Shown: positions 6,331 through 51,135 of the stretch, piece by piece
Layout of the letters: each line of letters starts with the position of its first letter
Numbering within the stretch: position 1 is the first letter of the stretch
Source of the DNA: Olivibacter sitiensis DSM 17696
Lineage (GTDB): Bacteria > Bacteroidota > Bacteroidia > Sphingobacteriales > Sphingobacteriaceae
Direction: 5' to 3'
Assembly: GCF_000427965.1 (NCBI RefSeq)
Contig: NZ_ATZA01000007.1
Coordinates: forward strand, 1 to 64,000
DNA length: 64,000 nucleotides
The notes under the pieces: model-generated
Database searches by the model: none
What the model saw: only the letters and a program-made list of their open reading frames with translations
What the model was told of the DNA's origin: nothing
Translations under genes and position numbers: made by a program

Positions 6331-6393
6331 CTTGAAATCGATATTAAGAATGCAAACCGAAACATAAATGTACAATTTTCATTCAAAAATATA

Positions 6394-6442
6394 ATTTTAC
6401 CATGTAAATTGAAAGTTAAAATTTCAATTTACATGGTAAAAT
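6394..6442. repeat. Perfect 21-bp inverted repeat upstream of the ATPase gene
   Basis: The left arm at 6394-6414 begins ATTTTACCATGTAAATTG. Its exact reverse complement occupies 6422-6442, with a 7-base loop. A third partial copy (ATTTTACCA) follows at about 6445-6453. The arms are AT-rich with no T-tract logic, so this is more likely an operator, a recombination site or an element end than a terminator. It lies between the macroglobulin stop (6467) and the ATPase start (6330). Confidence 0.75.
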
Positions 6443-6466
6443 CAATTTTACCAGTCTACTAAAAGT

Positions 6467-34232: not shown

Positions 34233-35216
34233 ATGGAAACTTTTGACATATTGATTATCGGTGGTGGCCCAATTGGACTTGCCTGTGGCATTGCTGCCAA
34301 GCAAGCTGGCCTATCTCACATTATCCTAGAGAAAGGTTGTTTAGTCAATTCCCTTTACAATTACCCTGTTAATATGACTTTCTTTTCCACCTCAGAAAAG
34401 CTTGAAATAGGTGAAACACCATTTGTAACAACTAATCCCAAGCCCAAAAGAGCAGAGGCATTGGAATATTACAGAAGGGTGCAAGACAAATTTTCGCTTA
34501 ACGTACGCCTATTTGAGGAGGTGTTAAATGTGGAAAAGAAAGAAGACGGACAATTCATCACCAAAAGCAGCAAGAGTGAATATCGGAGTAGGTTCGTAAT
34601 CGTTGCAACAGGATTTTACGACAAACCCAACCTCATGAATATTGAAGGGGAAGAGCTCTCGAAGGTAAGGCATTATTATGATGATCCACATTACTATGCC
34701 TATCAAAAGGTGGTGGTTATAGGCAGCAGTAACTCGTCGGTTGATGCCGCCTTGGAAACCTTCCGCAAAGGTGCCGAAGTGACAATGGTAATTCGTCGTG
34801 ACACTATCGGCGAGCGCGTCAAATATTGGGTTAGGCCCGATATTGAAAACCGAATTGCCGAAGGCAGCATAAAAGCCTACTTCAACAGCTGCCTCTTGGC
34901 AATCAGACCAAACGAAGTGGACATACAGACCCCCGAAGGAAGGGTAGAGACCATTGCCAATGATTTTGTGCTCGCTCTTACTGGATACCAGCCAGACTTT
35001 GCCTTTTTAGAGAAAATAGGCATTCAGCTGTCGAGCGATGATTCTCTCATACCCGCTCACAATACGGATACGATGGAGACAAACATCTCCGGACTTTATC
35101 TTGCCGGAGTAGTTTGTGGAGGTATGAACACGCACTTGTGGTTCATCGAGAACAGTCGAATACATGCCGACATCATCATGAAGCACATCAAGATTAAGGG
35201 CTTCGCTACGGCCTAG
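34233..35216 (+). CDS. YpdA-family NAD(P)-binding thiol reductase
   Basis: 327 residues, thioredoxin-reductase-like fold without a CxxC. GGGPIGLACGIAAKQAG binds FAD, and VVIGSSNSSVDAALE binds NAD(P)H. The segment NYPVNMTFFSTSEKLEIG is characteristic of YpdA, the putative bacillithiol disulfide reductase. Bacillithiol synthesis occurs in part of the Bacteroidota; no bsh gene lies in this window. It could equally reduce another low-molecular-weight disulfide. Its stop overlaps the stop of the converging DUF1080 gene by four bases. Confidence 0.85.
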   Translation: METFDILIIGGGPIGLACGIAAKQAGLSHIILEKGCLVNSLYNYPVNMTFFSTSEKLEIGETPFVTTNPKPKRAEALEYYRRVQDKFSLNVRLFEEVLNVEKKEDGQFITKSSKSEYRSRFVIVATGFYDKPNLMNIEGEELSKVRHYYDDPHYYAYQKVVVIGSSNSSVDAALETFRKGAEVTMVIRRDTIGERVKYWVRPDIENRIAEGSIKAYFNSCLLAIRPNEVDIQTPEGRVETIANDFVLALTGYQPDFAFLEKIGIQLSSDDSLIPAHNTDTMETNISGLYLAGVVCGGMNTHLWFIENSRIHADIIMKHIKIKGFATA

Positions 35217-36601
35217 CGGAGCACCTTAATCTTGATGCTTCTAAAACTCACCAAATCTCCATGGTCCTGGAGCAGGATATGCCCTTGCGCCGCCTCGCCA
35301 AAGTCTTTCCAGTCCTTATACTTACTTTTTGCCACCAACTCCCGATAAAGCTCGGAACCGCGCACATATTCCAGCACCTTAACACCATTTAGGTAATGCT
35401 CTACCCTATTGTCCGGGTATACCACTACCCTACCTTGGTTCCATTCTCCTATCTTGTGCACGAATCGCTGTTGTTTTTCTGCCTTGATGAGATCATAGAG
35501 CGATGCCAAGGTGCGGTTACCATCTCGCCCCAGCTTGGCATCCGGATGTAAGGCATCATCCAATATTTGATATTCTAGTCCGATAGCCGAGCCAGCATTT
35601 TTTTCAGAAAGTGTCACAAAATACTTCACCCCACTGTTTGCACCTGGACTAAGCTTAAATTCGAATGAAAGATCAAATGCCCCATATTGATCTTTTGTCA
35701 CGATATCACCTCCATTGGTAGATTCTTCCCCCGCGGCGGGCAATACGCTAATCGTTCCTTTGCTGATATCCCAACCTTTGCTAGGGAAGGCGTTTTTATA
35801 GGCCCCCAGCCATCCTGCCGAGCTTTTTCCGTCGAACAGCAGCTTCCAGCCGTCTTGTTCCTCATAAGCATTCAGAAAATTGGGGATATTATTGACAACA
35901 TAAATACCTGACGGAAAAGGTGTGGGCACCAGATTGGAGGTTTTGAGTTTGATATTACGAAACCAAACTCGTTTTCCTGCATCTTTTTCATTTGAAATGG
36001 CATGCACCTGCAAGCCGATGAATCCCTGTGTATCCAAGGTGTCGACTACATATGCAGCGGGAATACCATTTACCCAGGTTTTCATCTCATTTCCTATGCA
36101 TTCTATTTTAAGATGGTTGTAGCTTTCCCTCTTATAGGCCGTTGCCGCGCCGGCATTTAGTGACATTGGATACAGCCAGTCTCTACGTGCTTCATCATAT
36201 ATCCCACCGCTCCAAGCTCTTGCCGTAGGGTCTAGCTCAGCCTGACGGCCATATACTTTCCCTTTCCCATTATTTCCCGAGGGATCCAAGTGGCTCCTTA
36301 CCTGGACTCCAGAGTTGCCCGTTGGGCTTTCTATCTTCACTTCCAGTTCAAGCACAAAGTCACCGTATTCTTTTTCCGTTATAAGAAAAGTATTGCCAGT
36401 ACCTGCAACAGCAGTGCCCACGATTTCGCCATTTTCTATGTCGAATCGAGCATCACCTCCCACTATTTTCCATCCTTTCAGATCTTTTCCATTGAACAGT
36501 TTATCTTCTGTGCTTTGCGCTAAGGCAGTTAAAGCATATGACAATAACATCGTCAGCGCAACAAGCTTTGTATAATTTGGATACATTGTTTTCGTGTTCA
36601 T
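35213..36601 (-). CDS. Tandem DUF1080 (3-keto-disaccharide hydrolase-like) secreted protein
   Basis: 462 residues with a signal peptide (cleaved near ALAQ). Two DUF1080 domains occur in tandem, about residues 32-200 (LFNGKDLKGWKIVGG) and about 250-462 (LLFDGKSSAGWLGAY). The family has a concanavalin-like jelly-roll fold; members cleave 3-keto glycosides made by sugar oxidoreductases of the Gfo/Idh/MocA type. Single-domain proteins of half this length are the usual form. It is the last gene of the polysaccharide locus, 82 bases after the truncated oxidoreductase. Whether both domains are active cannot be judged. Confidence 0.88.
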   Translation of the reverse strand: MNTKTMYPNYTKLVALTMLLSYALTALAQSTEDKLFNGKDLKGWKIVGGDARFDIENGEIVGTAVAGTGNTFLITEKEYGDFVLELEVKIESPTGNSGVQVRSHLDPSGNNGKGKVYGRQAELDPTARAWSGGIYDEARRDWLYPMSLNAGAATAYKRESYNHLKIECIGNEMKTWVNGIPAAYVVDTLDTQGFIGLQVHAISNEKDAGKRVWFRNIKLKTSNLVPTPFPSGIYVVNNIPNFLNAYEEQDGWKLLFDGKSSAGWLGAYKNAFPSKGWDISKGTISVLPAAGEESTNGGDIVTKDQYGAFDLSFEFKLSPGANSGVKYFVTLSEKNAGSAIGLEYQILDDALHPDAKLGRDGNRTLASLYDLIKAEKQQRFVHKIGEWNQGRVVVYPDNRVEHYLNGVKVLEYVRGSELYRELVAKSKYKDWKDFGEAAQGHILLQDHGDLVSFRSIKIKVLR

Positions 36602-36683
36602 TCTTTCAGTATTTTATCAGTGACCGATCGTCTGCTTTGGCCTTTTCTGTATTTTTATTATCTACTATTATTTACATTATCTC

Positions 36684-37115
36684 TTATACAACATGGTAGT
36701 ATTGTTCCCAACCCTTCCTTGGCGGAGGTCCTGTAAGGAAGTCATTCACAATTTTGCTGTTCGTAATTCGCTTGGTTTTTCGATTAAACTCCAGTTTCGT
36801 ATTTAAACGTCGCGTTGTGACGCTCAGTGCCAATACCTGGCTCAGCGGCGCGGCCACCTCAAAAGGCGAACGTGTCTTTTCCTCTCCTTTGCAGGCCAGT
36901 AGAAAGTTTTTGGAGGCAAATCCTGTGTTATACAACTCGGCAATAATCTCTGCTCTCCCGTTATCTGCACCTATGCAGGCCGGGTTGACTCGCTCATTGG
37001 CTCCTGCTAGCTTAAAAGTTGGAGAGCGGCCTTTTCCGATGAGCAAATCTGGCGCTACAGCCATCGCTAAGCTTTGCTTCAAAAAAGATCTCCTTGAATT
37101 TTTGTGTTTCTTCAT
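36684..37115 (-). pseudogene. Gfo/Idh/MocA oxidoreductase with large internal in-frame deletion
   Basis: The 143 codons join two separate ends of a protein normally about 430-480 residues long. Residues 1-67 carry the twin-arginine-like signal RRSFLKQS and the beginning of the Rossmann fold (ERVNPACIGADNGRA, itself altered from the usual GxGxxG). Residues 68-143 match the extreme C-terminus of the family (FLLACKGEEKTRSPFEVAAP through GPPPRKGWEQYY). The missing middle contains most of the NAD site, the EKP motif and the catalytic lysine/histidine. The junction is near 36914. The reading frame is intact, so a short protein may be made, but it cannot be an oxidoreductase. Confidence 0.85.
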
Positions 37116-37327
37116 GTAAGTTACAATTGGTTTTACTTTGAAATGTGGAAGATATCATTCATCACAACATATCGATTTAATTAATTTTTGAATAGTGTCT
37201 AACAGCAGATGTCGAAAATTTCCAACACCGCCTCTCGCAAATTAAGTCGAAGTGACTAATTTAGCAAAAACAAATAATACCATGTCAATAATGGATAAAT
37301 TCATAAAAGATGTGGACTCCTCAAAGC

Positions 37328-38200
37328 CTATTTCTCAGCTTTCTTAAGAAGGTCTTTGTAGTCAATTAGCTCAATTCCCTTTGCATTTATCATTTTTTTC
37401 ACTTTCTCGCTCCTTAACAAATCTGTCACGCCGTGACGGTCTTCCGCCATGTTTTCATATCCGATATGCCCAACTGATTCAAGTTCTTCATTATTTAATG
37501 CGGGATGGTCAACGAACAGGTATTCCTTGCCATGCTCTAGTCCATCCAACATCTTGATGAAACTTGATTCTTTTTCTTGAAAAGTATTCTTCGGACCATC
37601 ATAGCTAATGCGTTGTATATTATAGTCATCACCTTCTATTACTATTAGATTATACTCTTTCGCCAGTTTTTTGACCATCATCAGCACTTTTTCGTCAAAA
37701 CTCATCGAGCCCATATGTCCAGAGAGGTGACTTGTCCATGGAACATTCTTTAGCATTAGCTCTATTTGCGCCCTGAATTCGGCTTCTATTTCCGAGAGCT
37801 GCCAATCATTCTCCATAACGGACTGATTCGGATAAGCGGCATTGGGCCAAATCATTGGGTAGAAAAAGCCATTACTATCCGTCAAGCTGGGACAATGTGT
37901 CAACGGCCGCCATTTTATATTTTCCCATTCACTGGTAATGGCCAAATGTACCCCCACGTCCACGCCCGAATGTTCCCGAAGCAATTCTACTGCTTCGGGC
38001 AACCATGCGGCAACAGGTATTACTTCTACAGAAGTAGTAATTCCGTTTACATAGGTATCTATTGATGCCCTATTTATCGAATGAAACGCCGCCAAATCAT
38101 CTGAACGGACTATCAACCTTGGCGCTTGTCCACGCAAGGGAGTAAATACGAAGAGAAAAAGAAGTGTCAAGGCCAATTTTTCAATGTTTTTATCGATCAT
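37328..38200 (-). CDS. YdjC/ChbG-family carbohydrate deacetylase, secreted
   Basis: 290 residues from the ATG at 38200, giving a signal peptide (MIDKNIEKLALTLLFLFVF). An upstream start would overlap the rhamnosidase gene. PRLIVRSDDLA supplies the metal-binding Asp pair; VGVHLAIT and TSHLSGHMG supply the metal and catalytic histidines. The family removes N- or O-acetyl groups from oligosaccharides. It lies 25 bases downstream of the rhamnosidase and probably deacetylates the same glycan. The signal peptide indicates periplasmic action, unlike cytosolic ChbG. Confidence 0.85.
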   Translation of the reverse strand: MIDKNIEKLALTLLFLFVFTPLRGQAPRLIVRSDDLAAFHSINRASIDTYVNGITTSVEVIPVAAWLPEAVELLREHSGVDVGVHLAITSEWENIKWRPLTHCPSLTDSNGFFYPMIWPNAAYPNQSVMENDWQLSEIEAEFRAQIELMLKNVPWTSHLSGHMGSMSFDEKVLMMVKKLAKEYNLIVIEGDDYNIQRISYDGPKNTFQEKESSFIKMLDGLEHGKEYLFVDHPALNNEELESVGHIGYENMAEDRHGVTDLLRSEKVKKMINAKGIELIDYKDLLKKAEK

Positions 38201-38225
38201 CTTTTCAAAATCTAAAATTTTCGTG

Positions 38226-40970
38226 CTACTGGGAATCATCCGTTTCAAAAAGGTATTTCCCCGAGGCAACACTGTATACGGCAAAACCATCTTCCCATTG
38301 GACAAAGGAGGCTCCCGGGGTTGCTCTCACGACACCATCTTTTTTACTTTTAACATAAACCGTGGCCGTTGTATTTCCAGGAATCTCGACCGCTATGGTA
38401 TAGGTATTGCCCACTATCGCCCAGTCGGACACGATCAGTCCATAGGGAGAGTTGTACGTTCCCTTGGCCCAAGTAAGGTCACCTCCAGGTTGCGGCTTAA
38501 TCTGCACTTCCTTGAAACCGGGCTTTGCAGGATTGATGCCCAGCAAGGAACGGAAAAACCATTCTTCTGTAGAACCAAACATCGGGTGGTTTTGCGATGG
38601 GCTACTTTCGGGATATTGCCACGATTCCCAAAGAGAGGTGGCTCCTTCGGCGAGCATATATCCCCAGCTTGGAAAGTCGCGTTGATTGGCTAAGCGGTAG
38701 GCAATATGATTCATATTTTTTTTGCGCAAGACATCGAATCCCATCTTCGCGGCAAAAATCCCTGTAGATAAGTGCCAATTATGGCGTTCATACTCCTTCA
38801 ACAGCACATCGAATGTCAAATCCGCTTCGGGCGAAAAGTCATAATATAACGCAAATAGCTGTGCCGCCTGCGTGGCATTGTCAAAGCGTCCGGTGCCCGG
38901 CATCAGATATTTGCGAGTAATTAGCCTTTTGATATTCGCAGCCAACGTTTCGTGGCGTGCAGCATCTTCATCCTTACCCAATATAGCTGCAAATTCGGCA
39001 ATTAGTTTTGCATGGTGATAATAGAAGGCACTTGCGGAAAAAGCTTCAGCCCGAGGGTCAAGCGCATTGTGGTCGCCAATATCCCAATGAAACAGCCCGT
39101 TGATGGCTTTTGATTGTATAAAGTCCATTTGCTTCACGAACATGGGATAACAATGTGCAATGATTCGTTTGTCTCCATAAAACTCATATACTTTTTTCTG
39201 AAGATAAGGAAATGCCAATTGCCAGCCTAAGGGTCCGGAATCGTCGCCCAATCCCTTGTCTGCAATACCGGTAAAAGGTGCAATCTCCGTGATACCTCCT
39301 TCAGGCCTTTGGTCGTTGATGAAATCGCGCACGGTTTTCCAATAAAAGCTGGCCATATCGAAGTTGTAGATGTACGATTCGGCTACGGCAAACATATCAC
39401 CCCCATACCCCATTTTTTCACGGGCAGGGCAGTCGGACTGCACGCTGAACACGTTACTTAGAAAAGTTCGCAAAGTGACGTCATGTAGCTGATTGAACAT
39501 GTCATTGGAACAGGCAAATGTGCCGTTAGTCTTCAAATTGGCAGCAAGGCGGATACCCTCCACATTTTCTGTGGTCAACTTGCCTGGCCAGCCGAACACT
39601 TCCACATATCGGAATCCATGAAACGTGAAATGAGGCGTATATTCTTCAGTAGCTCCTCCTTTAAGTACATAAGCATCCTCCTGATAAGCATCTGGAGGAG
39701 CACCCGGCCCGCCTTTGATCCCCCAGGCACTTTTGATCTGACCTGCCACGCTCGTCATCCAGTTGAGCGTACTATCAGCATATATATCCTCCCCATATCG
39801 GAGCGTAACTTGGGTACCACGGCTGCCCTTTAGCTTAATTCGAGCAACTCCGGCAAAATTCACGCCCATATCGACGATATAGCTTCCCTGCTCGGTCTGC
39901 CAGACACTCACTGGCTTCACGACTTCCCTGATTCGCACGGGGGGCTGCAGTTGCGGAACAAGCAGGCCATCGGGACCTTGTTCTATTACCGCAGGTTTCC
40001 ATAGCGACGGATCAGTCCCTGCCCTATTCCAGTTTTTCACTTCAAGTTGAGCATCGTAACGTTCTCCAAGGTAAATATTGTTTCGGATGACCGGTCCTTT
40101 TGCCGTGCTCCATGATTCGTCCGTCACGATTGTTTCCGTGGTGCCGTCCTTATATGTCAATAAAAGCTGCGCTTTCACTATAGGGCGCCCTGTCTGCTGG
40201 TGATCACGCAGGTTGAAACGCCCAAACAAGCGAAGTGGCAAAGGGTTGTACCAGCCATTGCCCAGCATCACGCCCGCTACGTTTTTGCCCTTCTTTATCA
40301 TCCCGGTTACGTCATGCGTTACATATAGCACTTCCTTACGGTGCGCTGTCCATCCAGGATCGAGGATGTTTTCGCTCACTTTTTTGCCATTAAACGATGC
40401 CTCGTAGTAACCGAGTCCGCAGATATACAAGCGGGCGGAGGCAATGTCCCTTTTCACGTCAAACTCCTTTCGGAAGAGCGGCATGGGATCATCTTGATAG
40501 AACTCTTCATCCTTTTCAAACTGTTGTTGTCCGTCACCTATCCAATGGGCTTTCCAGTCTTTCTGAGAAAGCATCGCTGTCTCAAACCAAGCGGGATCGC
40601 TCCACTCAGATGCTATCCCTTCGACGTTGAATACACGTACTTTCCAATAGTAGCGTTGGAAAGGTTTAATGGGCTTGCCATTCCATTCCACCAGCACGGA
40701 TTGGTCGGAATGCACTTTCCCACTGCACCAGGTGGTAGTTTCTGCTGCCTGCAAACCATCCACCGTCTCGCTTACCAACAACTCATATGCCGACTGCTTT
40801 ACGTCGTTTCTCCCAGCTGCTATCGCCCAGCTAAATCTTGGCGATGAAGTTGCTAATCCCAAGGGGTTTTCAGCAAATTCGCACGTGAGTGACGTAGGAA
40901 AGAAATCCGCCGCTTTCACATGTAGGGCCCAGACTAGAGATAGGACTGAAAACAATATTACTTTTTTCAT
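38226..40970 (-). CDS. Alpha-L-rhamnosidase (GH78)
   Basis: 914 residues with a signal peptide (ending near HVKA). N-terminal Fn3/beta domains, then an (alpha/alpha)6 barrel. DCPAREKMGYGGD carries the general acid region and EGATSLWESW the catalytic base Glu, both typical of GH78. It releases terminal alpha-L-rhamnose from polysaccharides or glycosides. It starts four bases after the FAD oxidoreductase stop, so the two are tightly coupled. It is the most substrate-informative gene of the locus, pointing to a rhamnose-containing glycan. Confidence 0.93.
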   Translation of the reverse strand: MKKVILFSVLSLVWALHVKAADFFPTSLTCEFAENPLGLATSSPRFSWAIAAGRNDVKQSAYELLVSETVDGLQAAETTTWCSGKVHSDQSVLVEWNGKPIKPFQRYYWKVRVFNVEGIASEWSDPAWFETAMLSQKDWKAHWIGDGQQQFEKDEEFYQDDPMPLFRKEFDVKRDIASARLYICGLGYYEASFNGKKVSENILDPGWTAHRKEVLYVTHDVTGMIKKGKNVAGVMLGNGWYNPLPLRLFGRFNLRDHQQTGRPIVKAQLLLTYKDGTTETIVTDESWSTAKGPVIRNNIYLGERYDAQLEVKNWNRAGTDPSLWKPAVIEQGPDGLLVPQLQPPVRIREVVKPVSVWQTEQGSYIVDMGVNFAGVARIKLKGSRGTQVTLRYGEDIYADSTLNWMTSVAGQIKSAWGIKGGPGAPPDAYQEDAYVLKGGATEEYTPHFTFHGFRYVEVFGWPGKLTTENVEGIRLAANLKTNGTFACSNDMFNQLHDVTLRTFLSNVFSVQSDCPAREKMGYGGDMFAVAESYIYNFDMASFYWKTVRDFINDQRPEGGITEIAPFTGIADKGLGDDSGPLGWQLAFPYLQKKVYEFYGDKRIIAHCYPMFVKQMDFIQSKAINGLFHWDIGDHNALDPRAEAFSASAFYYHHAKLIAEFAAILGKDEDAARHETLAANIKRLITRKYLMPGTGRFDNATQAAQLFALYYDFSPEADLTFDVLLKEYERHNWHLSTGIFAAKMGFDVLRKKNMNHIAYRLANQRDFPSWGYMLAEGATSLWESWQYPESSPSQNHPMFGSTEEWFFRSLLGINPAKPGFKEVQIKPQPGGDLTWAKGTYNSPYGLIVSDWAIVGNTYTIAVEIPGNTTATVYVKSKKDGVVRATPGASFVQWEDGFAVYSVASGKYLFETDDSQ

Positions 40971-40974
40971 CTAT

Positions 40975-42648
40975 TTATTTTTCTATCACCAAAACAGGAC
41001 TTTCCAAAACCTGACCGTCCTCTTTCAATACGCTTTTTAGCTGATCATAATCCACGTCCTGAACTGCCCAATCATGATCTATGGCCAGAATGGCTGCGGA
41101 TGCTGCCGACTGGCCCAGGATCATGAATACTGGCTCCATGCGTATCGAACCAAAAGCGATGTGCGAACTGGACATGCATACAGACACCAATAAATTTTCA
41201 CATTCCTCCTTTTTAGGTATTATTGACTGATATGGTATTTTATATGGCCCAGGCAGGTGGACACCAATATCGCCTTCATTTTGCACAAATCCGTCCAGCT
41301 TGACGTAGCGCTGCACATTATGAGAATCCAGCGTGTAGGACCCCATACCTACGGGATCGGCCACCTCGGCTCGATTAAAAATTTCATGTTCGGTAGTCAC
41401 ACGGTCGCCGACCATGCGCCTTGCCTCCCGAATGTATAGCTGGCGGGGCCAGTTTCCGTTGTCCGTAAACTCATCTTTGGCCAATCCCCATTGGGACATC
41501 TTTTCCCGAACCTCTTCCGGTACTTTCGGATCATTGGACAGGAAGTACATCAGTCCTTTCTGGTAATCCTCATGTTCCCTGATAATTTCCTTCCTTCGCT
41601 CGTAGCTGGCCTCTGGATAGTCATAGCTCATGCCTATGAAATCGGTACTGAATGGCCCGTGGTTGTTCGTATCCGTCTTGCGGTTGGGGATGATGTCGAA
41701 CTTGCTGAAGGTTTGTCGCCATCCAGAAGCGAAGACCCTTGCCAGCAACTCATAGTTCTCGGGACTGTAGTTATCCGGTCTAGGGAATACCACTCGGTTT
41801 TCGGGATGATTGCTCAAACACATACGGAAGCAGTAGGCTTGTACACGGTGGTCGCCTTCACCATATTCACCGGGATACTCGGCCGAAACGCCGTAGAGTA
41901 GTCCACTGGTGGAGTCACCGGATATTTTGTAGGGGCTGATGTCTGCCCCAAACCAGTGAGAGTGGTGCAACACTCCCACCTGCACACCGTTCCATTGCTC
42001 GCCATATACGCTATTGGCTTCACGGCCTACATGATAGCTGACTCCCGATGCAGCCAACAGATCGCCTTCGTAGGTAGCATCAATAAACATTTTGCCTTTA
42101 TAAGTATTGCCACTCAACGTGGTGATTGATGTGATCCGACCGTTTTCCTTTTTGACACCAGACTCCCTGTTGAGCCATTCGTCGCGCCGCACGTCGATGT
42201 CATATTCGACTACGTAATCTTCAAAGATCTTTTCGGCCACATGGGGCTCGAATATCCACATGGTGCGCGCATCGCCATCGATAGCAGGTGTTCCCTGTCC
42301 CTTGTTGCCGTATTGCTCCTTTTTTTCCCACTGCCAGGCGGCGCTGTCCTGATAATGGAGATAAACACGGTGGTAGAAATCGCGCGCGAGGCCACCGATG
42401 ACAGACTTATCGCCCGTATCAGTGAACCCCAGCCCTCCCGAGGATAGGCCACCCAAATGGGTATCTGGAGAGACGACGACGACGGATTTACCGGATTTTT
42501 TCACCTGCACGGCCGCGGTGATGGCTGCCGAGGTTCCGCCATATATGACTACATCGGCCTCTACCGATTTTTTGCGATCGATGCTGGTGCAGGACTGACT
42601 AATCGTTAAGAAAAAAATTGCGAGTAGAAGAAAGATACTGCTTTTCAT
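40975..42648 (-). CDS. FAD-dependent oxidoreductase lipoprotein (FAD_oxidored family)
   Basis: 557 residues. Lipobox SQSC near residue 20 suggests membrane anchoring. The FAD-binding start VVIYGGTSAAITAAVQ and the HLGGLSSGGLGFTD segment define the FAD_oxidored (PF12831) family, common in Bacteroidota carbohydrate loci. The substrate is unknown; a sugar or sugar-derived alcohol is inferred from the neighbours. With the DUF1080 protein it could take part in an oxidative route of glycoside cleavage. Upstream GH5 gene is 126 bases away. Confidence 0.85.
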   Translation of the reverse strand: MKSSIFLLLAIFFLTISQSCTSIDRKKSVEADVVIYGGTSAAITAAVQVKKSGKSVVVVSPDTHLGGLSSGGLGFTDTGDKSVIGGLARDFYHRVYLHYQDSAAWQWEKKEQYGNKGQGTPAIDGDARTMWIFEPHVAEKIFEDYVVEYDIDVRRDEWLNRESGVKKENGRITSITTLSGNTYKGKMFIDATYEGDLLAASGVSYHVGREANSVYGEQWNGVQVGVLHHSHWFGADISPYKISGDSTSGLLYGVSAEYPGEYGEGDHRVQAYCFRMCLSNHPENRVVFPRPDNYSPENYELLARVFASGWRQTFSKFDIIPNRKTDTNNHGPFSTDFIGMSYDYPEASYERRKEIIREHEDYQKGLMYFLSNDPKVPEEVREKMSQWGLAKDEFTDNGNWPRQLYIREARRMVGDRVTTEHEIFNRAEVADPVGMGSYTLDSHNVQRYVKLDGFVQNEGDIGVHLPGPYKIPYQSIIPKKEECENLLVSVCMSSSHIAFGSIRMEPVFMILGQSAASAAILAIDHDWAVQDVDYDQLKSVLKEDGQVLESPVLVIEK

Positions 42649-42774: not shown

Positions 42775-43935
42775 CTAGTATTTTTGCAGTAACTTCAATA
42801 GCCTGCTATCTAGTTTGCACCCATACCAGTCCTCATAGGCGACATCTTTTCTTCCTGAATCAAGTAAACCGAAATCGCCACGAAAATTCCATAATCCCCA
42901 TCCAATACCACTCGAACCCAACACATCTAATTGGTCTTCAAACCACGCTAGAAAGACCTTATGGGGAGTTTCTTTGAAACAACCGCATTCTCCGCAATGC
43001 ACACCTATCCCTTGTTTTACTAAATCCATCCAGGGTCTGTAGAAGTCCTCAAGTACTTCCCTATCATATCTCTTACCATTGATCATAGCAGGCCATACGG
43101 GCATGGGTGCATCGTCAGGATTTTTCCATACCCAGCCAGCACGATAGTGGGACACATCATGTGGAAAATATCCCCTGCAACTCTGCGCGATGGGCAAATC
43201 CATCAATTCGGGGATCACCAAAGCCCCGCCATTATTGCCGTCTGCCACAACAAGCCTATCCGCATTTTGCTGATGGATGACCTGCAAGGAGCTTTTGGCC
43301 ACCTTTCGGTAAATATCGCCGGGGATGGCTTGAGCAGGAGCAAACTGGTCATTCATATCTTCTTTGAAGCATGGCTCGTTGACCAGGTCGAAACTCAGAA
43401 GTCGTGGAGCAACGTGGCGGAAACGCTTGGCCCACATATCCCAATGGACATAGAACGCATCTTGTGCTTCTTGGTCTTTCCAAAGATTGAAGGGTTCGCG
43501 AAAGCCCGCATTGATACAAAATCCGGGAGCACGGTGTAGGTTGAGGCTCACATGTAGGTTGTACTTATTGGCCAGATACACCAATTCCTCAACAGCTTCA
43601 AGGGGCTCCTCCTTGAAATCAATGGTTTCCTCCGGCGTAATATCTTTGCCAAGGGATGGATTGTATTTTAGATAAGTGGGGTATGCCAATGGTATACGTA
43701 CAAAATCGAACCCCCAATCTGCCATCCATTTAAAATCCTGCTCGGTAGCGACAAGCAGCTTGTAGTCCGCGACATAGGGGCGGTGTGAGAAAAAATTAAG
43801 AAAATTAAATCCCCGCCAGCGTGGTAGTTTATTTTGTATAGGTTTGGTTTTCCCCGAAAAAACATTGGGCATTCCTGCCAAGGCAAGGCCTGCAGAAGCT
43901 GCTATTAAAAATTCGCGACGATTGATACAGTCCAT
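42775..43935 (-). CDS. Glycoside hydrolase family 5 enzyme
   Basis: 386 residues. The N-terminus NRREFLIAASAGLALAG resembles a twin-arginine export signal. A (beta/alpha)8 barrel follows; LVNEPCF holds the acid/base Glu, preceded by LSFD, and GVHCGECG holds the nucleophile Glu. Beta-glucosidic or mannosidic backbone cleavage is typical of the family; the exact activity is not predictable by eye. First gene after the susD hairpin in the polysaccharide locus. Confidence 0.87.
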   Translation of the reverse strand: MDCINRREFLIAASAGLALAGMPNVFSGKTKPIQNKLPRWRGFNFLNFFSHRPYVADYKLLVATEQDFKWMADWGFDFVRIPLAYPTYLKYNPSLGKDITPEETIDFKEEPLEAVEELVYLANKYNLHVSLNLHRAPGFCINAGFREPFNLWKDQEAQDAFYVHWDMWAKRFRHVAPRLLSFDLVNEPCFKEDMNDQFAPAQAIPGDIYRKVAKSSLQVIHQQNADRLVVADGNNGGALVIPELMDLPIAQSCRGYFPHDVSHYRAGWVWKNPDDAPMPVWPAMINGKRYDREVLEDFYRPWMDLVKQGIGVHCGECGCFKETPHKVFLAWFEDQLDVLGSSGIGWGLWNFRGDFGLLDSGRKDVAYEDWYGCKLDSRLLKLLQKY

Positions 43936-44060: not shown

Positions 44061-45602
44061 TCAATAACCCGTATTCTGGCTCAGATTGGGGTTTTCGTCC
44101 ACTTCGCCAGACGGCAACGGAAAATTGATATTATATTCCTGAAATTGAAGATCGATCAGCAACGAGGCGAAATCTAAGGCCTTCAAGTCAATTTCTCCGG
44201 CGATATGCCTGCGGCGCAGATCCCACCAACGATGTCCTTCCTCAAAGGCAAGTTCAAGTCGCCTCTCCTGAAAAACCCATTCCAATACGGTGCTGGAATT
44301 TGTTTCGGACATGTCACGATTTGCTGGCACTGCGGAGGGCACTCCGTTTTCGGTTGAGTTTCTCGCCCTTTCACGAACGTCATTGATCAAGCCAATGGCC
44401 TGAGACAAGCTACCCCCACTCCGCACAATGGCCTCCGCCTGTAGAAGTAGGACATCGGCATAACGCAGGATACGGGGATTGTTGATACTCACGCCATTTA
44501 CTGGGCCCGAGGCTCCTGCTGCATAAGCATTGTGCGTGACATATTTTTTGACATTGATGAGTACACCATCACTCAAATTGATGTTGTAGCTTTTCCGAGG
44601 ATCACCGTCTTCGTACGCATTTTTTATTGAAGAAGTAGCCGAGAAATAGGAATTGCCAATCCAGGATGGCAGTTGGTTAAACATGCCCGTGTAATGGCCA
44701 ATTTCTCCAATCACGGCGAATGCGTCATTACCACCTGCTCCACCGACAAAGGGATTGACGTTTCCTGCGGAGCTATTGGCCTGGTATTCAAACAACGATT
44801 CGGCATTGTTCTCCTTAGAGGCATTAAAGTTGTCACTATACTGCGGCATCAGTGAAACACCCGATATGGCATTAAAATTGGCGATAGCTTCCGTGAAGTC
44901 GGTGCTTGTATTATTTATTGTACCCCTGAACACCAAGCATTTGCCCCGTAGTCCCAAAGCGGAATTTCTGACTGCCCTTCCCTTGTACTCTGAAGGCCAG
45001 CTATCGGGCAGCAGGGACGCCGCTTCCTGCAAATCGGCTATTGCCTGATCTAGCAACTGTGTCGCAGTCGAGTTGGGAGGATATGCATCTGCAAGATATA
45101 GGATTCGTTCCGTTACCAAGGGGGCCGTTCCGTATACATTCCATAATGCAAAATACATGTAAGCGCGCAAAAACAAAGCCTCTCCCCTGTTGTAGCCTTT
45201 CAAAGTAGGGTCTGACAGATAAATTTCATCGCCATTTTCATCTATTTTTTGCAATACGGTATTGGCACGCGCAATAAGTTGATAAGCAAATCGATAGTAA
45301 TTGTTCAATTGCTCGTTAGAACCGTTAAGCGCGGTAAAATTCTCAAGCGCGTATCCCGCAGGGGAGGTGAGGTCATCGCTCGGAAGCAACGTGACTGGAA
45401 GAACATGGCTGTTTTGCCCACCCCTGAACGCATAAAAGAAGGACAGCTTTTGATAAATGCCAAAAACCGCTTGTTGCATGTGATCCTCATTCTGGAAAAA
45501 TCCGGATTCTATGTCTCCAATTGGATCAAGGTTTATCGTTTCCTCACTGCAAGCGCCGAGAAACATAACCAGTACCAATATGATGGATATTATCTTGTTC
45601 AT
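44061..45602 (-). CDS. SusD/RagB-family glycan-binding lipoprotein
   Basis: 513 residues from the ATG at 45602 (MNKIISIILVLVMFLGAC, lipobox with Cys18); the frame extends 31 codons further without support. TPR-like helical SusD fold with the conserved VLEWVFQERRLELAFEEGHRWWDLRR motif region near the C-terminus. It caps the SusC barrel on the cell surface and binds the glycan. It begins 22 bases after the SusC stop. Confidence 0.95.
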   Translation of the reverse strand: MNKIISIILVLVMFLGACSEETINLDPIGDIESGFFQNEDHMQQAVFGIYQKLSFFYAFRGGQNSHVLPVTLLPSDDLTSPAGYALENFTALNGSNEQLNNYYRFAYQLIARANTVLQKIDENGDEIYLSDPTLKGYNRGEALFLRAYMYFALWNVYGTAPLVTERILYLADAYPPNSTATQLLDQAIADLQEAASLLPDSWPSEYKGRAVRNSALGLRGKCLVFRGTINNTSTDFTEAIANFNAISGVSLMPQYSDNFNASKENNAESLFEYQANSSAGNVNPFVGGAGGNDAFAVIGEIGHYTGMFNQLPSWIGNSYFSATSSIKNAYEDGDPRKSYNINLSDGVLINVKKYVTHNAYAAGASGPVNGVSINNPRILRYADVLLLQAEAIVRSGGSLSQAIGLINDVRERARNSTENGVPSAVPANRDMSETNSSTVLEWVFQERRLELAFEEGHRWWDLRRRHIAGEIDLKALDFASLLIDLQFQEYNINFPLPSGEVDENPNLSQNTGY

Positions 45603-45624
45603 AAAATGATTATTTAGCATTAAA

Positions 45625-48600
45625 TTAAAAACTAATATTTGCCCCGAATGAGAAAACCGTTGGTGTTGTGATATTTTCCGGATCGAGATCGTCATAAGGA
45701 GAAATCACAAACAGATTGGTTCCCGACAAGTAACAGCGCATGCTGCTCACGCCAACTTTCGACAAAAAGTCACCTTTGAAGCGGTACCCAAACTGGAAAT
45801 TCTGGAAGCGGAAAAAACCCGCATTTTGGACATGCCGATCCGATATACGGTTATTTCCCGAAGGATCGCTTTGAACCGCCCTCGGGATAGTGTTGGATGG
45901 ATTGCTAGGTGTCCACCTATTGGCATACGCTGAGAGGAAGTTCGTTCCACCACCACTGATACTTTGCAAGCCCAAGGTATTGATTTTCTGCACATCCCCC
46001 AATCCACGAAACATCAGGGACAGATCCCAGTTTTTATAATCCGTTCCTATACTTATACCATAGTAATAGCCTGGAATGGTTTTTCCCACATAGGTCATGT
46101 CATAGGGGTCTATCCGCCCATCTGGAGAATAGTTTTTCAACGCACCATCTGGATCTTGCGCCGTTGGAGCTCCATAGATATCCACAAAACGCACATCTCC
46201 CGGAGATTTCTGTGCGGAAAACCCAACGTCGTTGTGATTGGCCAGCCATGTGTCCACCTCTTGCTGAGTCTGGAAGATGCCGTCAGTTTTATAGGCATAT
46301 AAGTAATTAATTGAATATCCGTCTTCTATGCGCACATTTCCGCTTGTCGAAGGAAGTCCGTTATACATGTTGCTTACCCGGTTTCGCACGGTAGTCAGGT
46401 TAGCTGAAATATTATATCCCACATTCCCAATCTTGTCCTGAAAACCGATATCAAACTCCATACCTCTATTGTCCACCTTGGCCAAGTTGATCACGGGAGT
46501 TGTCAACGCTCCGATAACCGCTGGAATGGAAATGGCCTGTAAAATGCCATCCGTTTTCCGATTGTAATATTCGGCGGTAAAGCTCAGCCGATTGCGGAGC
46601 GCCATCATGTCAAATCCGAAAGAATAGGTGGTAACCGTCTCCCAGCTCATGTCTGCGATTGGAAAATCGCCCAATGCTGCTGCGGAGTATAAGGTTCCGT
46701 CTCCCGAAACGTCAGTGCCAAACGCAGCTTTAGGGTTTAGATTGACCAATGAAAGGTATGCAAAATCGCGGGTTTCCTGATTACCGGTCTTACCCCATCC
46801 ACCTCGTATTTTGAGATCATCCAGCCAGGAGATGTTCCGCATGAAGTTTTCGGACGATATGCGCCATGCACCTGCAAAAGAAGGAAAGGTACCCCATTTA
46901 TAGCCGGGCCCAAACTTGGAAGTACCATCTCGACGCAGAGTGGCGTCCATATAATACTTACCATCGTAATTATAGCTCAACCTTCCCATGTAGCCCAACA
47001 GGCCGGAGGAATAGCGCTCATAGAAGCTGACCTTATCCGTCGAGGGCCACCCTTCGTTGATATAACGCTGGTCATAATTCGGTATCGGGGAATTGCGGAC
47101 GATGTTGTTATCATTGATATTCCATTTGATTCGTTGGTCCATAATATTGAAAAGCCCTTCTACCGAGTGCTTGCCAAAGGAATTGTTATAAGCGACTAAA
47201 AATTCCTTCACAATATTGATATTTACGCTTTCCCGACGACCGAACGTATTTCCTATTCCACTTTGGACAATTCCTGACGAAATAGAATACAAACCCGTTT
47301 GAGGTTCTGTATAACTTTCTTGTGCATTGGTATAATAGTCGGCACTAAACGTTCCCCGAATACGCAAGCCTTCCAAAGGAGATATCTCTGCATAGGCACT
47401 ACCTAGGTTGCGAAGCATGTCGCGTGTCGAAACATCGTGTGCGTCTACACCTAAGAAATTGTTGATGGTAGCCGCACCATAGCCGTACGGAAAAAACCTG
47501 CCATCGATCGTGCGCCCGGTTCTCGCAAGGCCGTTGGCCTGCGAGGCATCGTAAAGTGGCTGCCACGGCAACACGAAAGATGCGGCACCAAAGCTTGTGC
47601 CAGTATGGCTATCGACATCCGAATAAACCAGCCGGTAGGTTTGCCCTACTTTCAACCAATCGGTCAGCTTATGATCGGAGTTGACCGAAAAGGAATAACG
47701 TTCAAAAAGGTTTTTGTACATCGCATCCTGTTGACTGGCATATCCTCCGCCTACGGCATAGGTAGAGGCCTTTGTTCCGCCCGACACAGATATATTGTAA
47801 TCCTGTATAGCGGCATTTTCCTGCAATACCGCATCCATCCAGTCCTTGGAATAATTGGGACTATTGCCCAGGTAATGTGGTGAGCTGGCGTCAAGAAATG
47901 GATAAAACTGATCCTTGACATAGGCTGGATTGGCATTGATGGCTTCTAGGCTCCAGTCTACGTACTGCTGTATAGAAGCGACGTCATATCTTTTATACAG
48001 GTTTTGAACACCGTAGTTCATGGACAAATCTACCCGTGGCTTCCCTTCGCTGCCACGCTTGGTGGTGATAAGCACCACACCATTGGATGCACGCACCCCG
48101 TAGATGGCTGTTGCCGAAGCATCTTTCAGTACTGAAATGGACTCGATATCGTTTGGATTGATCATATTGAAAACATTGATATTGCCTCGCAATGTCTGAT
48201 CCCGTCCATCGGTCGAACTTGCCCCACCTTCCGTCAACGGAATACCATCCACCACATAAAGGGGATCATTGAAACCCAAGGTACTGACTCCTCGGATACG
48301 GATATCGGGGCGAGCAAAAGGGCTACTGCCGGGATTGCTGACAAAGACACCGGCCATACGACCCTGCATGGCAAATTGCGGAGACATGTTCACTTGCTTG
48401 GTGATTTCTTCGGAAGTAATCTGCGAGACAGCGCCCGTTAGATCCTTCTTTTCCCGTTGGCCGTAACCAATAACCACGATTTCATCCAATGCAGAGGTCT
48501 GGGCCCGAAGTACCACATCGATCGTACGCTGTTCTCCCACAGTTATCTCTCGCTCCAAAAAACCCACATATCTGAAAACAAGAACATTTCCTTTTTCTGC

Positions 48601-49113
48601 TTGTACCTGAAATCTGCCATCGACATCTGTCGAAGTCCCCTGTCTGGTTCCTTTTACCAAGACAGAAACGCCTCCTAAAGGATTGCCCAAAGAATCTCTC
48701 ACGGCACCTACAATCGGTTCCTGCGACAAAGATTTTGGTACCAGTTTTACCAATCTTGGTTTTATTATCACCGTTTTGTCCTCATTGAACTTAAATTCGA
48801 AGGGATAGTCCTTAAAACACAGGTCCAATGCAGTGACCAGCGATACGTCCTTTGCTTCTACCGTAATTGGAGCGATATTTTCCAATAGTTTGCCGTCATA
48901 GATAAAATCGTAGCCACTTTGCTTGGACAGCTGGTATAAAACCTGCGTAGCAGAGGCATTTTTCACCTTAATACTTAGCTGTTGCCCATTGCTGGCCATT
49001 GCCAGCTGCACAAATGCGAAGGTTAGCAACATCGCGATCTTCATCATCACCAAAAATTTGAATGAATAGAAAATTGGTTTTCTGCAATATATTGCAGTAA
49101 AGTTTTTATACAT
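45625..49113 (-). CDS. SusC/RagA-family TonB-dependent transporter with STN domain
   Basis: 1162 residues. After the signal sequence, an STN (secretin/TonB N-terminal) domain covers about 46-120; this domain relays signals to FecR. Then a carboxypeptidase-like beta domain (about 133-210), a plug (about 220-340, with RIRGVSTLGFNDPLYVVDG and SATAIYGVRASNGVVLITTK) and a large barrel ending in FSFGANISF. It imports oligosaccharides with SusD. The STN domain and the FecR/sigma genes upstream make a trans-envelope signalling circuit. An alternative start is the MMKIAMLL pair at codons 23-24. Confidence 0.95.
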   Translation of the reverse strand: MYKNFTAIYCRKPIFYSFKFLVMMKIAMLLTFAFVQLAMASNGQQLSIKVKNASATQVLYQLSKQSGYDFIYDGKLLENIAPITVEAKDVSLVTALDLCFKDYPFEFKFNEDKTVIIKPRLVKLVPKSLSQEPIVGAVRDSLGNPLGGVSVLVKGTRQGTSTDVDGRFQVQAEKGNVLVFRYVGFLEREITVGEQRTIDVVLRAQTSALDEIVVIGYGQREKKDLTGAVSQITSEEITKQVNMSPQFAMQGRMAGVFVSNPGSSPFARPDIRIRGVSTLGFNDPLYVVDGIPLTEGGASSTDGRDQTLRGNINVFNMINPNDIESISVLKDASATAIYGVRASNGVVLITTKRGSEGKPRVDLSMNYGVQNLYKRYDVASIQQYVDWSLEAINANPAYVKDQFYPFLDASSPHYLGNSPNYSKDWMDAVLQENAAIQDYNISVSGGTKASTYAVGGGYASQQDAMYKNLFERYSFSVNSDHKLTDWLKVGQTYRLVYSDVDSHTGTSFGAASFVLPWQPLYDASQANGLARTGRTIDGRFFPYGYGAATINNFLGVDAHDVSTRDMLRNLGSAYAEISPLEGLRIRGTFSADYYTNAQESYTEPQTGLYSISSGIVQSGIGNTFGRRESVNINIVKEFLVAYNNSFGKHSVEGLFNIMDQRIKWNINDNNIVRNSPIPNYDQRYINEGWPSTDKVSFYERYSSGLLGYMGRLSYNYDGKYYMDATLRRDGTSKFGPGYKWGTFPSFAGAWRISSENFMRNISWLDDLKIRGGWGKTGNQETRDFAYLSLVNLNPKAAFGTDVSGDGTLYSAAALGDFPIADMSWETVTTYSFGFDMMALRNRLSFTAEYYNRKTDGILQAISIPAVIGALTTPVINLAKVDNRGMEFDIGFQDKIGNVGYNISANLTTVRNRVSNMYNGLPSTSGNVRIEDGYSINYLYAYKTDGIFQTQQEVDTWLANHNDVGFSAQKSPGDVRFVDIYGAPTAQDPDGALKNYSPDGRIDPYDMTYVGKTIPGYYYGISIGTDYKNWDLSLMFRGLGDVQKINTLGLQSISGGGTNFLSAYANRWTPSNPSNTIPRAVQSDPSGNNRISDRHVQNAGFFRFQNFQFGYRFKGDFLSKVGVSSMRCYLSGTNLFVISPYDDLDPENITTPTVFSFGANISF

Positions 49114-49254: not shown

Positions 49255-50457
49255 CTATTGTTCCATCACGATTACCTTCCTTTCTGTTATTTTAAAGTCT
49301 ACCATGCCAGTCTCTTTAAAGTTGTTCAATAATTGGACGATGCTTTTGGAACGCTGGAAAACACCTCCAAAAACTTTATTTTCCATATTGCCTTCGTAAT
49401 CCACATCTATATCATACCATCTCGCTACCTTTTTCATAATGCTCTTAATAGGCTCATTGTTAAACACGAAATAGCCGTTATGCCAAGCCAGTTCTTCTTC
49501 CAAATCAACGTCTCGGACTAGCAAACTTGAATTATTCTCTCTATTGATAGATGCCTGTCCAGGGCGGATGACCACTGATTGATTATGCTTGTTGCTGACC
49601 TTTAACTTTCCCTCAGCCAAAGTTGTCTTCACTACCGATTCATTGGTGTAGGCATTTATATTAAATGCGGTACCCAATACTTGGCTGGACTGCGTAGCGG
49701 TATGGACATAAAAAGACTGCTTTTCATTGGATTTCACCTCAAAGAAAGCTTCTCCATCTAGTTCCACCTCTCTTTTGTCACCAATAAACCTGGTCGGATA
49801 TCTCAATGAAGATTCCGAGTTTAAATGCACCCGAGTTCCATCTGGCAAGACGAGTTTATATTGTCCTCCTTTGGGAATAGTGATGGTATTATAGACAACC
49901 GATGTTGGAGTATTTCCATTTTGTTGGTAAGACAATTGCCCATCGTTGGTTTTATTGATATTAACCCCCGCATCATTGGTTAAAAGTCCGCTTTCCACGT
50001 CGTCTAGCAATATAGTGCGTCCATCTCCGAGTGTCAGTACGGCCCGCTCTTGGCCAGGTTTAATATTAAATTTCTCTACTGCTTGTGATATCGTCAATTC
50101 GTCGTCGATCTGATGTTTACCATCGAACAGATAGATTCCGGCTAACATAAAAAGTACGATTGCAGCGGCCACTTTCACCCATGTTTGTACATAGAAAGGC
50201 TGCCTCTCGTTTTTTACAAGTGGCGATTCCTCTTTTTTCAAAATATTATGGATCATTATATCGGCCGCATCATCGGAGAAAGGCGGCTTTTCTGCAAGAA
50301 AGGTTGCATAATAGGTTCCAAGCAGTCTCTCCGCAACTTCCCGATTCAGCGGGTTTGCCATCAACTCGAATAGCTCTTCCCGCTCTTCAGTTGTAATGGT
50401 TTTTGCGATAGCTCTCTCGAACAATAAGCTAAGTCTTGCATGTTCCTCGGCAGTCAT
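49255..50457 (-). CDS. FecR-family anti-sigma factor
   Basis: 400 residues. A cytoplasmic N-terminal helical domain (about 1-85), one membrane helix (VKVAAAIVLFMLAGIYLF, about 91-108), a periplasmic FecR domain (about 180-280; TIPKGGQYKLVLPDGTRV) and a C-terminal DUF4974 domain (about 320-400). It holds the sigma factor until SusC with bound substrate signals through its STN domain. It lies 90 bases after the sigma gene. Confidence 0.93.
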   Translation of the reverse strand: MTAEEHARLSLLFERAIAKTITTEEREELFELMANPLNREVAERLLGTYYATFLAEKPPFSDDAADIMIHNILKKEESPLVKNERQPFYVQTWVKVAAAIVLFMLAGIYLFDGKHQIDDELTISQAVEKFNIKPGQERAVLTLGDGRTILLDDVESGLLTNDAGVNINKTNDGQLSYQQNGNTPTSVVYNTITIPKGGQYKLVLPDGTRVHLNSESSLRYPTRFIGDKREVELDGEAFFEVKSNEKQSFYVHTATQSSQVLGTAFNINAYTNESVVKTTLAEGKLKVSNKHNQSVVIRPGQASINRENNSSLLVRDVDLEEELAWHNGYFVFNNEPIKSIMKKVARWYDIDVDYEGNMENKVFGGVFQRSKSIVQLLNNFKETGMVDFKITERKVIVMEQ

Positions 50458-50547: not shown

Positions 50548-51135
50548 CTACAAGAAAAATGATATCAAAACAATCGCCACAAGCACTTCCATACGAACAA
50601 ATTCACTGACGGACTTCATGGCAAGGTGTTGGTATTTTTTAACGGATTCTATAGATAAGTTCATCCTTTCCGAAATTTCGATATTTTTCAATCCTTGCTG
50701 TCGCAAAATAAAGACCTTTTGCTGTTGAGGCGGCAATGACTGAACAGCATTTTCAATCAATTGATGATAATCTTTTGTTTCGCTGGAAATAAACACCGAT
50801 GGGGCTTCTATGGCATCTATTTCATTCACATAGGCTTTTCGCATTTTCCGTTCTGCTACTAGCTCCCTGATATGGTTCAGGGTATGGTTGCGAGTGATGA
50901 TGAACAGATAAGCATTAAACCTTTTGACATGTGTGAGCGACTCGCGATTCACCCAAATCTTGGCAAACACTTCTTGCACAATTTCCTGGGTAGTCTCGGT
51001 AGAATTGGTCAGCAATTGTACAAATTCCCCAACTTGATTAAAGTAAGCTCGGAACAGCGCTGCAAAGGCCCGCTCATCGCCAGTCGCAATCCGTGACAAC
51101 AATTCCGCTTGATTAGGTAAACTGTTGAATGCCAT
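50548..51135 (-). CDS. ECF RNA polymerase sigma factor
   Basis: 195 residues. Region 2 (about 20-90; AYFNQVGEFV, EIVQEVFAKIW) and region 4 (about 128-182; SLPPQQQKVFILRQQGLKNIEISERM) are both present, with no extra domains. Odd: the last 14 residues are hydrophobic (MEVLVAIVLISFFL), which could tether the protein to the membrane. It should transcribe the susCD-type locus after release from the anti-sigma factor encoded next to it. Confidence 0.93.
   Translation of the reverse strand: MAFNSLPNQAELLSRIATGDERAFAALFRAYFNQVGEFVQLLTNSTETTQEIVQEVFAKIWVNRESLTHVKRFNAYLFIITRNHTLNHIRELVAERKMRKAYVNEIDAIEAPSVFISSETKDYHQLIENAVQSLPPQQQKVFILRQQGLKNIEISERMNLSIESVKKYQHLAMKSVSEFVRMEVLVAIVLISFFL

Follow-up and report, generated by a model that had tools for sequence, protein, structure and literature searches.

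We analysed a window of 64,000 nucleotides from Olivibacter sitiensis DSM 17696 (contig NZ_ATZA01000007.1, positions 1 to 64,000), taken from a draft genome of 5.05 Mb in 110 contigs. The subject of this work is a minus-strand gene set at 35213-42648, the span from the stop of a DUF1080 gene to the start of a flavin adenine dinucleotide (FAD) enzyme, which an earlier note had proposed as an oxidative glycoside-cleavage set. Pfam domains and a two-piece alignment of the dehydrogenase remnant confirmed that all the genes named in that note lie there. In the order of transcription they are a FAD-dependent oxidoreductase of PF12831 (40975..42648, 557 residues), with a lipoprotein-like signal by eye and a substrate domain at about residues 200-482; a glycoside hydrolase (GH) family 78 alpha-L-rhamnosidase of 914 residues (38226..40970; 545 bits to 6i60); a YdjC-family carbohydrate deacetylase (37328..38200; 82 bits to the YdjC protein 8jqe); a 143-residue remnant of a Gfo/Idh/MocA dehydrogenase (36684..37115), with a Tat-like start by eye; and an intact tandem DUF1080 (PF06439) 3-keto-disaccharide hydrolase of 462 residues (35213..36601), with a signal-peptide-like start by eye. 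The locus is a degenerate form of a known pathway type together with one enzyme without known function, the FAD enzyme, which is the only oxidoreductase still intact in it. As to the single operon assumed in the earlier note, the genes from FAD enzyme to DUF1080 do share a strand, and the gaps between the FAD, GH78 and YdjC genes are only 4 and 25 nucleotides, the latter depending on our choice of 38200 as the YdjC start (the longest open reading frame, ORF, starts at 38305); 212 and 82 nucleotides separate YdjC, the remnant and DUF1080, and a single transcript is no more than plausible.

Upstream of the FAD enzyme, on the same strand, the genes follow in the order ECF-type (extracytoplasmic function) sigma factor (50548..51135; TIGR02937 above its cut-off, TIGR02985 below its curated cut-off), FecR-type anti-sigma factor (49255..50457; PF16344, PF04773), SusC-like TonB-dependent transporter (45625..49113; TIGR04056, 827 bits), SusD-like glycan-binding protein (44061..45695; PF07980, PF14322) and GH5 glycoside hydrolase (42775..43935; PF00150; 277 bits to the endoglucanase 1vjz), the last with a Tat-like signal by eye. 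With a SusC/SusD pair, carbohydrate-active enzymes and a sigma/anti-sigma regulator, the whole has the composition of a polysaccharide utilization locus (PUL). A terminator-like hairpin with six T lies just 3' of SusD on the same strand (44036-44022), so that GH5 and everything downstream of it may not be coupled to SusC/SusD; the scan detected no such hairpin between YdjC and DUF1080. Promoter-like and terminator-like sites occurred at chance numbers (16 against 16.6 expected, and 13 against 10.2 expected with a standard deviation of 3.5), and a Bacteroidota-type promoter pattern matched twice in the window and nowhere within the locus. At the far end, the stop codons of the DUF1080 gene and of a convergent Pyr_redox_3 gene (34233-35216) lie in a 4-nucleotide overlap of the two (35213-35216).

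The Gfo/Idh/MocA gene is broken, as the earlier note had stated. The remnant gave no match to Pfam, PF01408 included, or to NCBIfam, and what is left of it aligns in two pieces with an intact 474-residue paralogue encoded elsewhere in the genome, at C56 (L002:7723-9147): residues 4-87 are 37% identical to the N-terminus of the paralogue (residues 6-85), and residues 69-142 are 58% identical to its residues 401-474. The identical split was obtained with tblastn against the intact copies L183, L037, L082 and others, the best reference being L183 (genome G007), with 53% and 73% identity in the two pieces. This alignment indicates that the gene was broken by an in-frame internal deletion and not by a frameshift, with about 335 residues of the core (about 65 to 399 of the intact copies) missing. 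The glycine-rich loop, conserved in other copies, is altered in the remnant as judged by eye, and an intact NAD-binding (nicotinamide adenine dinucleotide) Rossmann fold and catalytic core are lacking in it; the ORF is still open but cannot accommodate a dehydrogenase. Column counts from a multiple alignment (47 kept, 28 changed and 179 deleted of 254) were not used because the N-terminal part of the remnant was misplaced in it.

The tandem DUF1080 protein matches PF06439 with 272.9 bits in two stretches, both domains being above the curated cut-off, and aligns with the solved tandem protein 4jqt with 462 bits over residues 31-461. None of the 104 family-invariant columns is changed in a 22-row tandem alignment, from which one row truncated at a contig edge was skipped, and the other 20 rows tested had 0 to 8 changes. 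PMC9007349 and the Pfam family name both link DUF1080 enzymes with 3-keto sugars, and the activity ascribed to them in the earlier note is in line with both. The statement that two such domains in one chain are uncommon was contradicted: of the 7 DUF1080 genes in the genome, which together encode 10 such domains, 3 are tandem, a tandem relative (E <= 1e-60) was found in 20 of 38 genomes, own genome included and one copy truncated by a contig end, and the solved 4jqt is also of this kind. When 22 tandem DUF1080 proteins were placed in a tree, that of the window branched alone, with no supported sister, and therefore no origin is claimed for it. Among 20 loci from 19 other genomes, 16 have a Gfo-family gene directly adjoining the tandem DUF1080 gene, so that Gfo/Idh/MocA was rightly called the usual oxidoreductase partner; the four loci without a directly adjacent Gfo gene, one of them truncated by a contig end, suggest that absence of the cis partner is tolerated. 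In the own genome (C3; L001:3518-10247), a 1134-residue protein (6007-9411) carries two DUF1080 domains after a long repetitive-looking N-terminal part, and the neighbours of its gene are two Gfo genes and a DUF1080 gene with a single domain.

Intact enzymes that could supply the missing oxidation are encoded elsewhere in the genome. At C56 lie a GH43-like gene (named by eye), a Gfo gene, a tandem DUF1080 gene whose product is 60% identical to that of the window and, adjoining it, the intact paralogue of the remnant, with PF01408 at 57.9 bits and the dehydrogenases 8tdf and 8tdh as best PDB matches; the search for another Gfo gene next to DUF1080, suggested in the earlier note, thus returned an intact Gfo-DUF1080-Gfo set. 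C56 also holds a pair of GMC and Gluconate_2-dh3 genes (about 24.6-26.8 kb), and a second such pair, separated by an intervening Gfo gene, lies at C51. We take these pairs to be of the LacA/LacC type, LacA presumably being a GMC enzyme and LacABC a system of GMC enzyme plus small subunit. The Gfo genes have Tat-like starts and the DUF1080 gene a Sec-like one, both by eye, which makes a shared periplasmic pool plausible; as such a pool would need, BT2158 of Bacteroides thetaiotaomicron is a periplasmic glycoside 3-dehydrogenase according to PMC11300592. Cooperation of the LacABC dehydrogenase with DUF1080 proteins has been proposed for Caulobacter and other bacteria (PMC9007349). Since intact possible suppliers exist, the simplest way to read the locus is supply in trans, and the suggestion that another gene provides the step fared best among those made before: the candidates at C56 and C51 are there, and that they feed the window hydrolase is what we propose.

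We hypothesize that the locus is a composite PUL in which the DUF1080 hydrolase is fed in trans and the FAD enzyme acts as a separate tailoring enzyme; as one joint claim, which takes the two-domain DUF1080 protein to be a working periplasmic 3-keto-glycoside hydrolase, we give it an even chance. The PUL would target a rhamnose-bearing, probably acylated glycoside, on which GH5, GH78 and YdjC would perform ordinary hydrolysis and deacylation. The DUF1080 hydrolase would have lost its neighbouring Gfo/Idh/MocA 3-dehydrogenase through the in-frame deletion, and its 3-keto substrate might now be made in trans by the C56 Gfo enzyme or by the GMC and Gluconate_2-dh3 sets. The PF12831 flavoenzyme would be a movable tailoring enzyme, present in varied SusC/SusD loci and performing a separate oxidation. 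The cellular location is likewise inferred.

The FAD enzyme matches PF12831 over the whole profile (1-416 of 416; 371.4 bits, cut-off 27), and in a 63-row alignment none of the 81 invariant columns is changed in it, with 0 to 6 changes in 12 other rows tested. PF12831 is its only domain above cut-off, the GMC domains PF00732 and PF05199 were not found, and BLAST gave no meaningful match to the GMC enzyme of the same genome; on these grounds a GMC-like sugar oxidase was rejected as an identification by sequence. A sequence search found no solved relative. The AlphaFold2 (AF2) model has a mean predicted local distance difference test score (pLDDT) of 90.8 as a whole and 91.2 for residues 200-482 alone. 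The whole model resembles general FAD-Rossmann enzymes, with the matches listed tied at Z 16.1-17.5 and with Foldseek template modelling (TM) scores by query length of at most 0.32 among the matches listed; when the substrate domain was searched by itself, no Foldseek match passed E <= 0.001 (best 0.47), and VIA Z did not exceed 2.2 among 378 chains. With only general flavoenzyme matches and no solved match for the substrate domain, an assignment of the reaction from the fold was abandoned, and the lack of a match for a modelled domain need not mean a new fold. A literature search, which brought up a paper on Brucella flavoproteins, found no function for this PF12831 subgroup.

Orthologues of the FAD enzyme are patchy: of 395 Bacteroidota genomes, 8 have one (E <= 1e-190), counting the own genome. 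Neighbourhoods were compared in the loci of the best 80 of 576 confirmed FAD relatives, a sample that leans to close relatives; the orthologues in them are 64-81% identical and come mostly from Bacteroidota, with metagenome-assembled genomes (MAGs) of Planctomycetaceae and Omnitrophota, for which possible misassignment of bins has to be kept in mind. Counts were made over 1.54 Mb with profiles built on the sequences of this analysis, not with Pfam, those for GMC, Gluconate_2-dh3, CstA, MFS, sulfatase, SusC and SusD being built from the same 80 loci, and distances were taken from any FAD-family gene, paralogues included; some labels, including those of the tandem-DUF1080 loci, were assigned by BLAST to seed proteins or by clusters, on ORFs set by the longest-ORF rule. 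SusC is present in 52 of the 80 loci (within 3 kb in 39), SusD in 46 (38), sulfatase in 20 (10), GMC and Gluconate_2-dh3 in 17 (15) each, CstA in 12 (11), MFS in 10 (9), Gfo in 9 (6), DUF1080 in 6 (3) and GH78 in 1 (1). At the density of the own genome (7 DUF1080 genes in 5.05 Mb), about 2 such genes would be expected in 1.54 Mb, so that its presence in six loci exceeds expectation only mildly, if at all. When 74 of the 162 operon-like neighbours were scanned with Pfam, Gfo came up 4 times, DUF1080 twice and GH78 once among the matches listed, which cover 25 of 132 families.

The recurrent order in these loci is sigma-FecR-SusC-SusD, a paralogue of about 670 residues with Golvesin_C, the FAD enzyme of about 555 residues, CstA/MFS, Gluconate_2-dh3 and GMC; many loci lack some of these. 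Few glycoside hydrolases were recognised in loci of this form (L076-L155, for example L076:4200-13050, L083 and L113). In the 80 loci, the SusC and SusD proteins encoded upstream of FAD genes are at most 32% and 28% identical to those of the window, which indicates that the FAD enzyme accompanies a different SusC/SusD pair here; patchy orthologues and SusC/SusD proteins of such low identity fit a movable module. At C3 of the own genome (L053:9209-15968), a 41% identical FAD paralogue follows SusD and a SusC that is seemingly split into ORFs of 540 and 613 residues.

GH78 combines the six-hairpin domain with accessory domains (PF17389, PF08531, PF25788, PF05592 and PF17390), and YdjC matches PF04794 with 135 bits over 1-265 of 266, the sole PF04794 match in the genome; a YdjC relative (E <= 1e-20) was found in 1 of 38 genomes besides the window copy, with 31% identity. 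A conserved partnership of GH78 with the FAD enzyme was considered and rejected, as only L094 of the 80 loci has both and its GH78 is 33% identical. BLAST to seed proteins found no FAD or YdjC neighbour of GH78 relatives (at most 50% identical) in five loci with flanks; beside one of the relatives, in L166, a DUF1080-resembling ORF (31%), truncated by the end of the stretch, lies about 8 kb away. Two more GH78 genes, one adjoining SusC/SusD, are located at C3:50000-76000 of the own genome (L169, L170), near genes that by eye are rhamnose mutarotase-like and rhamnulokinase-like, and from this content an ordinary rhamnose pathway may be encoded in the genome.

Among the comparators, L082:3198-16075 of Parapedobacter sp. 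SGR-10 is the most informative, with two GH43-like genes, Gfo, tandem DUF1080, Gfo, FAD, Gluconate_2-dh3, GMC and a GH2-like gene on one strand (the GH43-like and GH2-like names are by eye). Its first Gfo is 72% identical to that of C56, its second Gfo 80% to the remnant-type copy at C56, its tandem DUF1080 62.5% to that of the window and its FAD enzyme 77%. A FAD enzyme standing beside intact dehydrogenases of both other types suggests a separate step and argues against simple replacement. Elsewhere, L184 (genome G022) holds a 43% identical FAD paralogue, Gluconate_2-dh3, GMC, a GH29-like gene and Gfo within about 8 kb, and the same-genus stretches that were read (L185-L188) have Gfo without DUF1080 or FAD neighbours. 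In the comparison of relatives that the earlier note had advised, the FAD enzyme thus does accompany this chemistry in L082, but across the 80 loci it is seldom near DUF1080 or GH78.

Several observations weigh against the composite PUL with supply in trans. The intact C56 Gfo enzyme may not accept the same substrate, and in Pedobacter none of 10 DUF1080 genes had a lactose phenotype, according to PMC9007349. The gene order in L094 is GH29-FAD-GH78, and together with the 4 nucleotides between FAD and GH78 in the window it may point to a defined role of the FAD enzyme on deoxy-sugar glycosides. Of the 9 genomes that carry a remnant-type Gfo (E <= 1e-100), 8 also have a FAD orthologue (E <= 1e-200), compared with 13 of all 60 genomes (hypergeometric 4e-6 by genome and 0.008 by genus, with no correction for kinship and five of the nine in one genus); this co-occurrence links the FAD enzyme to the chemistry more tightly than would be the case for a pure module.

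Of the other explanations, the one that survives best places the FAD enzyme outside glycoside cleavage altogether: its substrate would be a small acid, an ether or an aglycone that the locus releases, and CstA/MFS would import the product in the usual loci. It is compatible with supply in trans to DUF1080 and agrees with the recurrent SusC-SusD-(FAD plus Golvesin_C)-FAD-CstA/MFS loci, in which a partial count recognised few glycoside hydrolases, with CstA and MFS in 12 and 10 of the 80 loci, and with a substrate domain unmatched among solved structures; however, GMC and Gluconate_2-dh3 each lie within 3 kb of a FAD gene in 15 of the 80 loci and a complete oxidative glycoside set is present in L082, so we consider this explanation unlikely, if still a serious one. 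It is improbable, and less likely than supply in trans, that the FAD enzyme took over the oxidation from the deleted Gfo and now feeds the DUF1080 hydrolase, the other suggestion of the earlier note. The two enzymes are both intact in one locus and on one strand, the 77% orthologue of L082 comes directly after Gfo-DUF1080-Gfo, a DUF1080 gene directly precedes FAD in the Planctomycetaceae MAG L136, and FAD and Gfo co-occur across genomes. On the other hand, nothing is substituted in L082, where FAD stands alongside two intact Gfo genes and GMC, DUF1080 occurs in only 6 of the 80 FAD loci and within 3 kb in 3, none of the 20 tandem-DUF1080 loci has a FAD gene among up to five genes either side, and the enzyme has neither a GMC domain nor meaningful similarity to the GMC enzyme of its own genome. 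We also find it improbable that DUF1080 is a leftover, or is repurposed for sugar binding or for hydrolysis without prior oxidation, in a locus that is now purely hydrolytic: the cis dehydrogenase is gone, and the single-domain DUF1080 protein THTE_1561 is named an endo-xanthanase/lichenase in PMC9007349, but 104 of 104 family-invariant columns are kept and 4 of the 20 tandem loci also do without an adjacent Gfo gene. An assembly artefact as the source of the broken Gfo gene is most improbable, although the genome is a 110-contig draft, since substitutions by eye in the otherwise conserved glycine-rich loop and a C-terminal part 58-73% identical to intact copies indicate that the remnant is not a collapsed copy of the C56 gene.

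The composite PUL with supply in trans is therefore retained as our working hypothesis. To our knowledge, the matching of oxidoreductases to the DUF1080 hydrolases that they supply in oxidative (3-keto) glycan cleavage is mostly not established, and this genome offers a natural experiment in which a DUF1080 hydrolase was retained without its cis dehydrogenase. The FAD enzyme, highly conserved and reaching well beyond this locus, is a clear target for the question of a third class of oxidation. We put forward tentatively, as a rather doubtful idea, that this PF12831 subgroup may be a third, hitherto unrecognised oxidation module of oxidative glycan breakdown in Bacteroidota, beside Gfo/Idh/MocA and GMC; apparently exported, found in varied SusC/SusD loci and frequently partnered by a Golvesin_C-bearing paralogue, it might use its substrate domain, unmatched among solved structures, to oxidise a sugar position that neither of the other types reaches.

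Compared with known systems, the pairing of Gfo with DUF1080 resembles that of BT2156-BT2160 in B. thetaiotaomicron, where BT2158, presumably of the Gfo/Idh/MocA family, is the glycoside 3-dehydrogenase and BT2157 the DUF1080 3-ketotrehalose hydrolase, and this pairing is intact at C56. Deletion of BT2157 or BT2158 caused no growth defect on raffinose-family oligosaccharides (PMC11501099). In the window, by contrast, the cis dehydrogenase is deleted, DUF1080 is a two-domain protein and the neighbours are GH78, YdjC and the PF12831 flavoenzyme. A broad-specificity 3-keto glycan pathway is reportedly described in a recent paper. 4jqt shares the two-domain architecture of the window protein and was deposited as a 'putative glycosyl hydrolase'; we know of no activity for it. 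The FAD enzyme is a full-length member of PF12831 (FAD_oxidored), a family name that is only a domain description. Glycoside elimination by Rhizobium GIN611 GlycDH and Agrobacterium OGE is alike in that oxidation at C3 precedes glycosidic cleavage, but the cleaving enzyme differs and DUF1080 is not mentioned in the main text (PMC10628242). In Caulobacter, where LacABC and DUF1080 are proposed to cooperate (PMC9007349), oxidation at C3 is likewise followed by DUF1080, whereas the FAD enzyme of the window belongs to PF12831 and not to GMC, and no GMC gene lies in the window locus; pairs of GMC and Gluconate_2-dh3, as in the LacABC comparison, are found in the own genome and beside some of the FAD orthologues.

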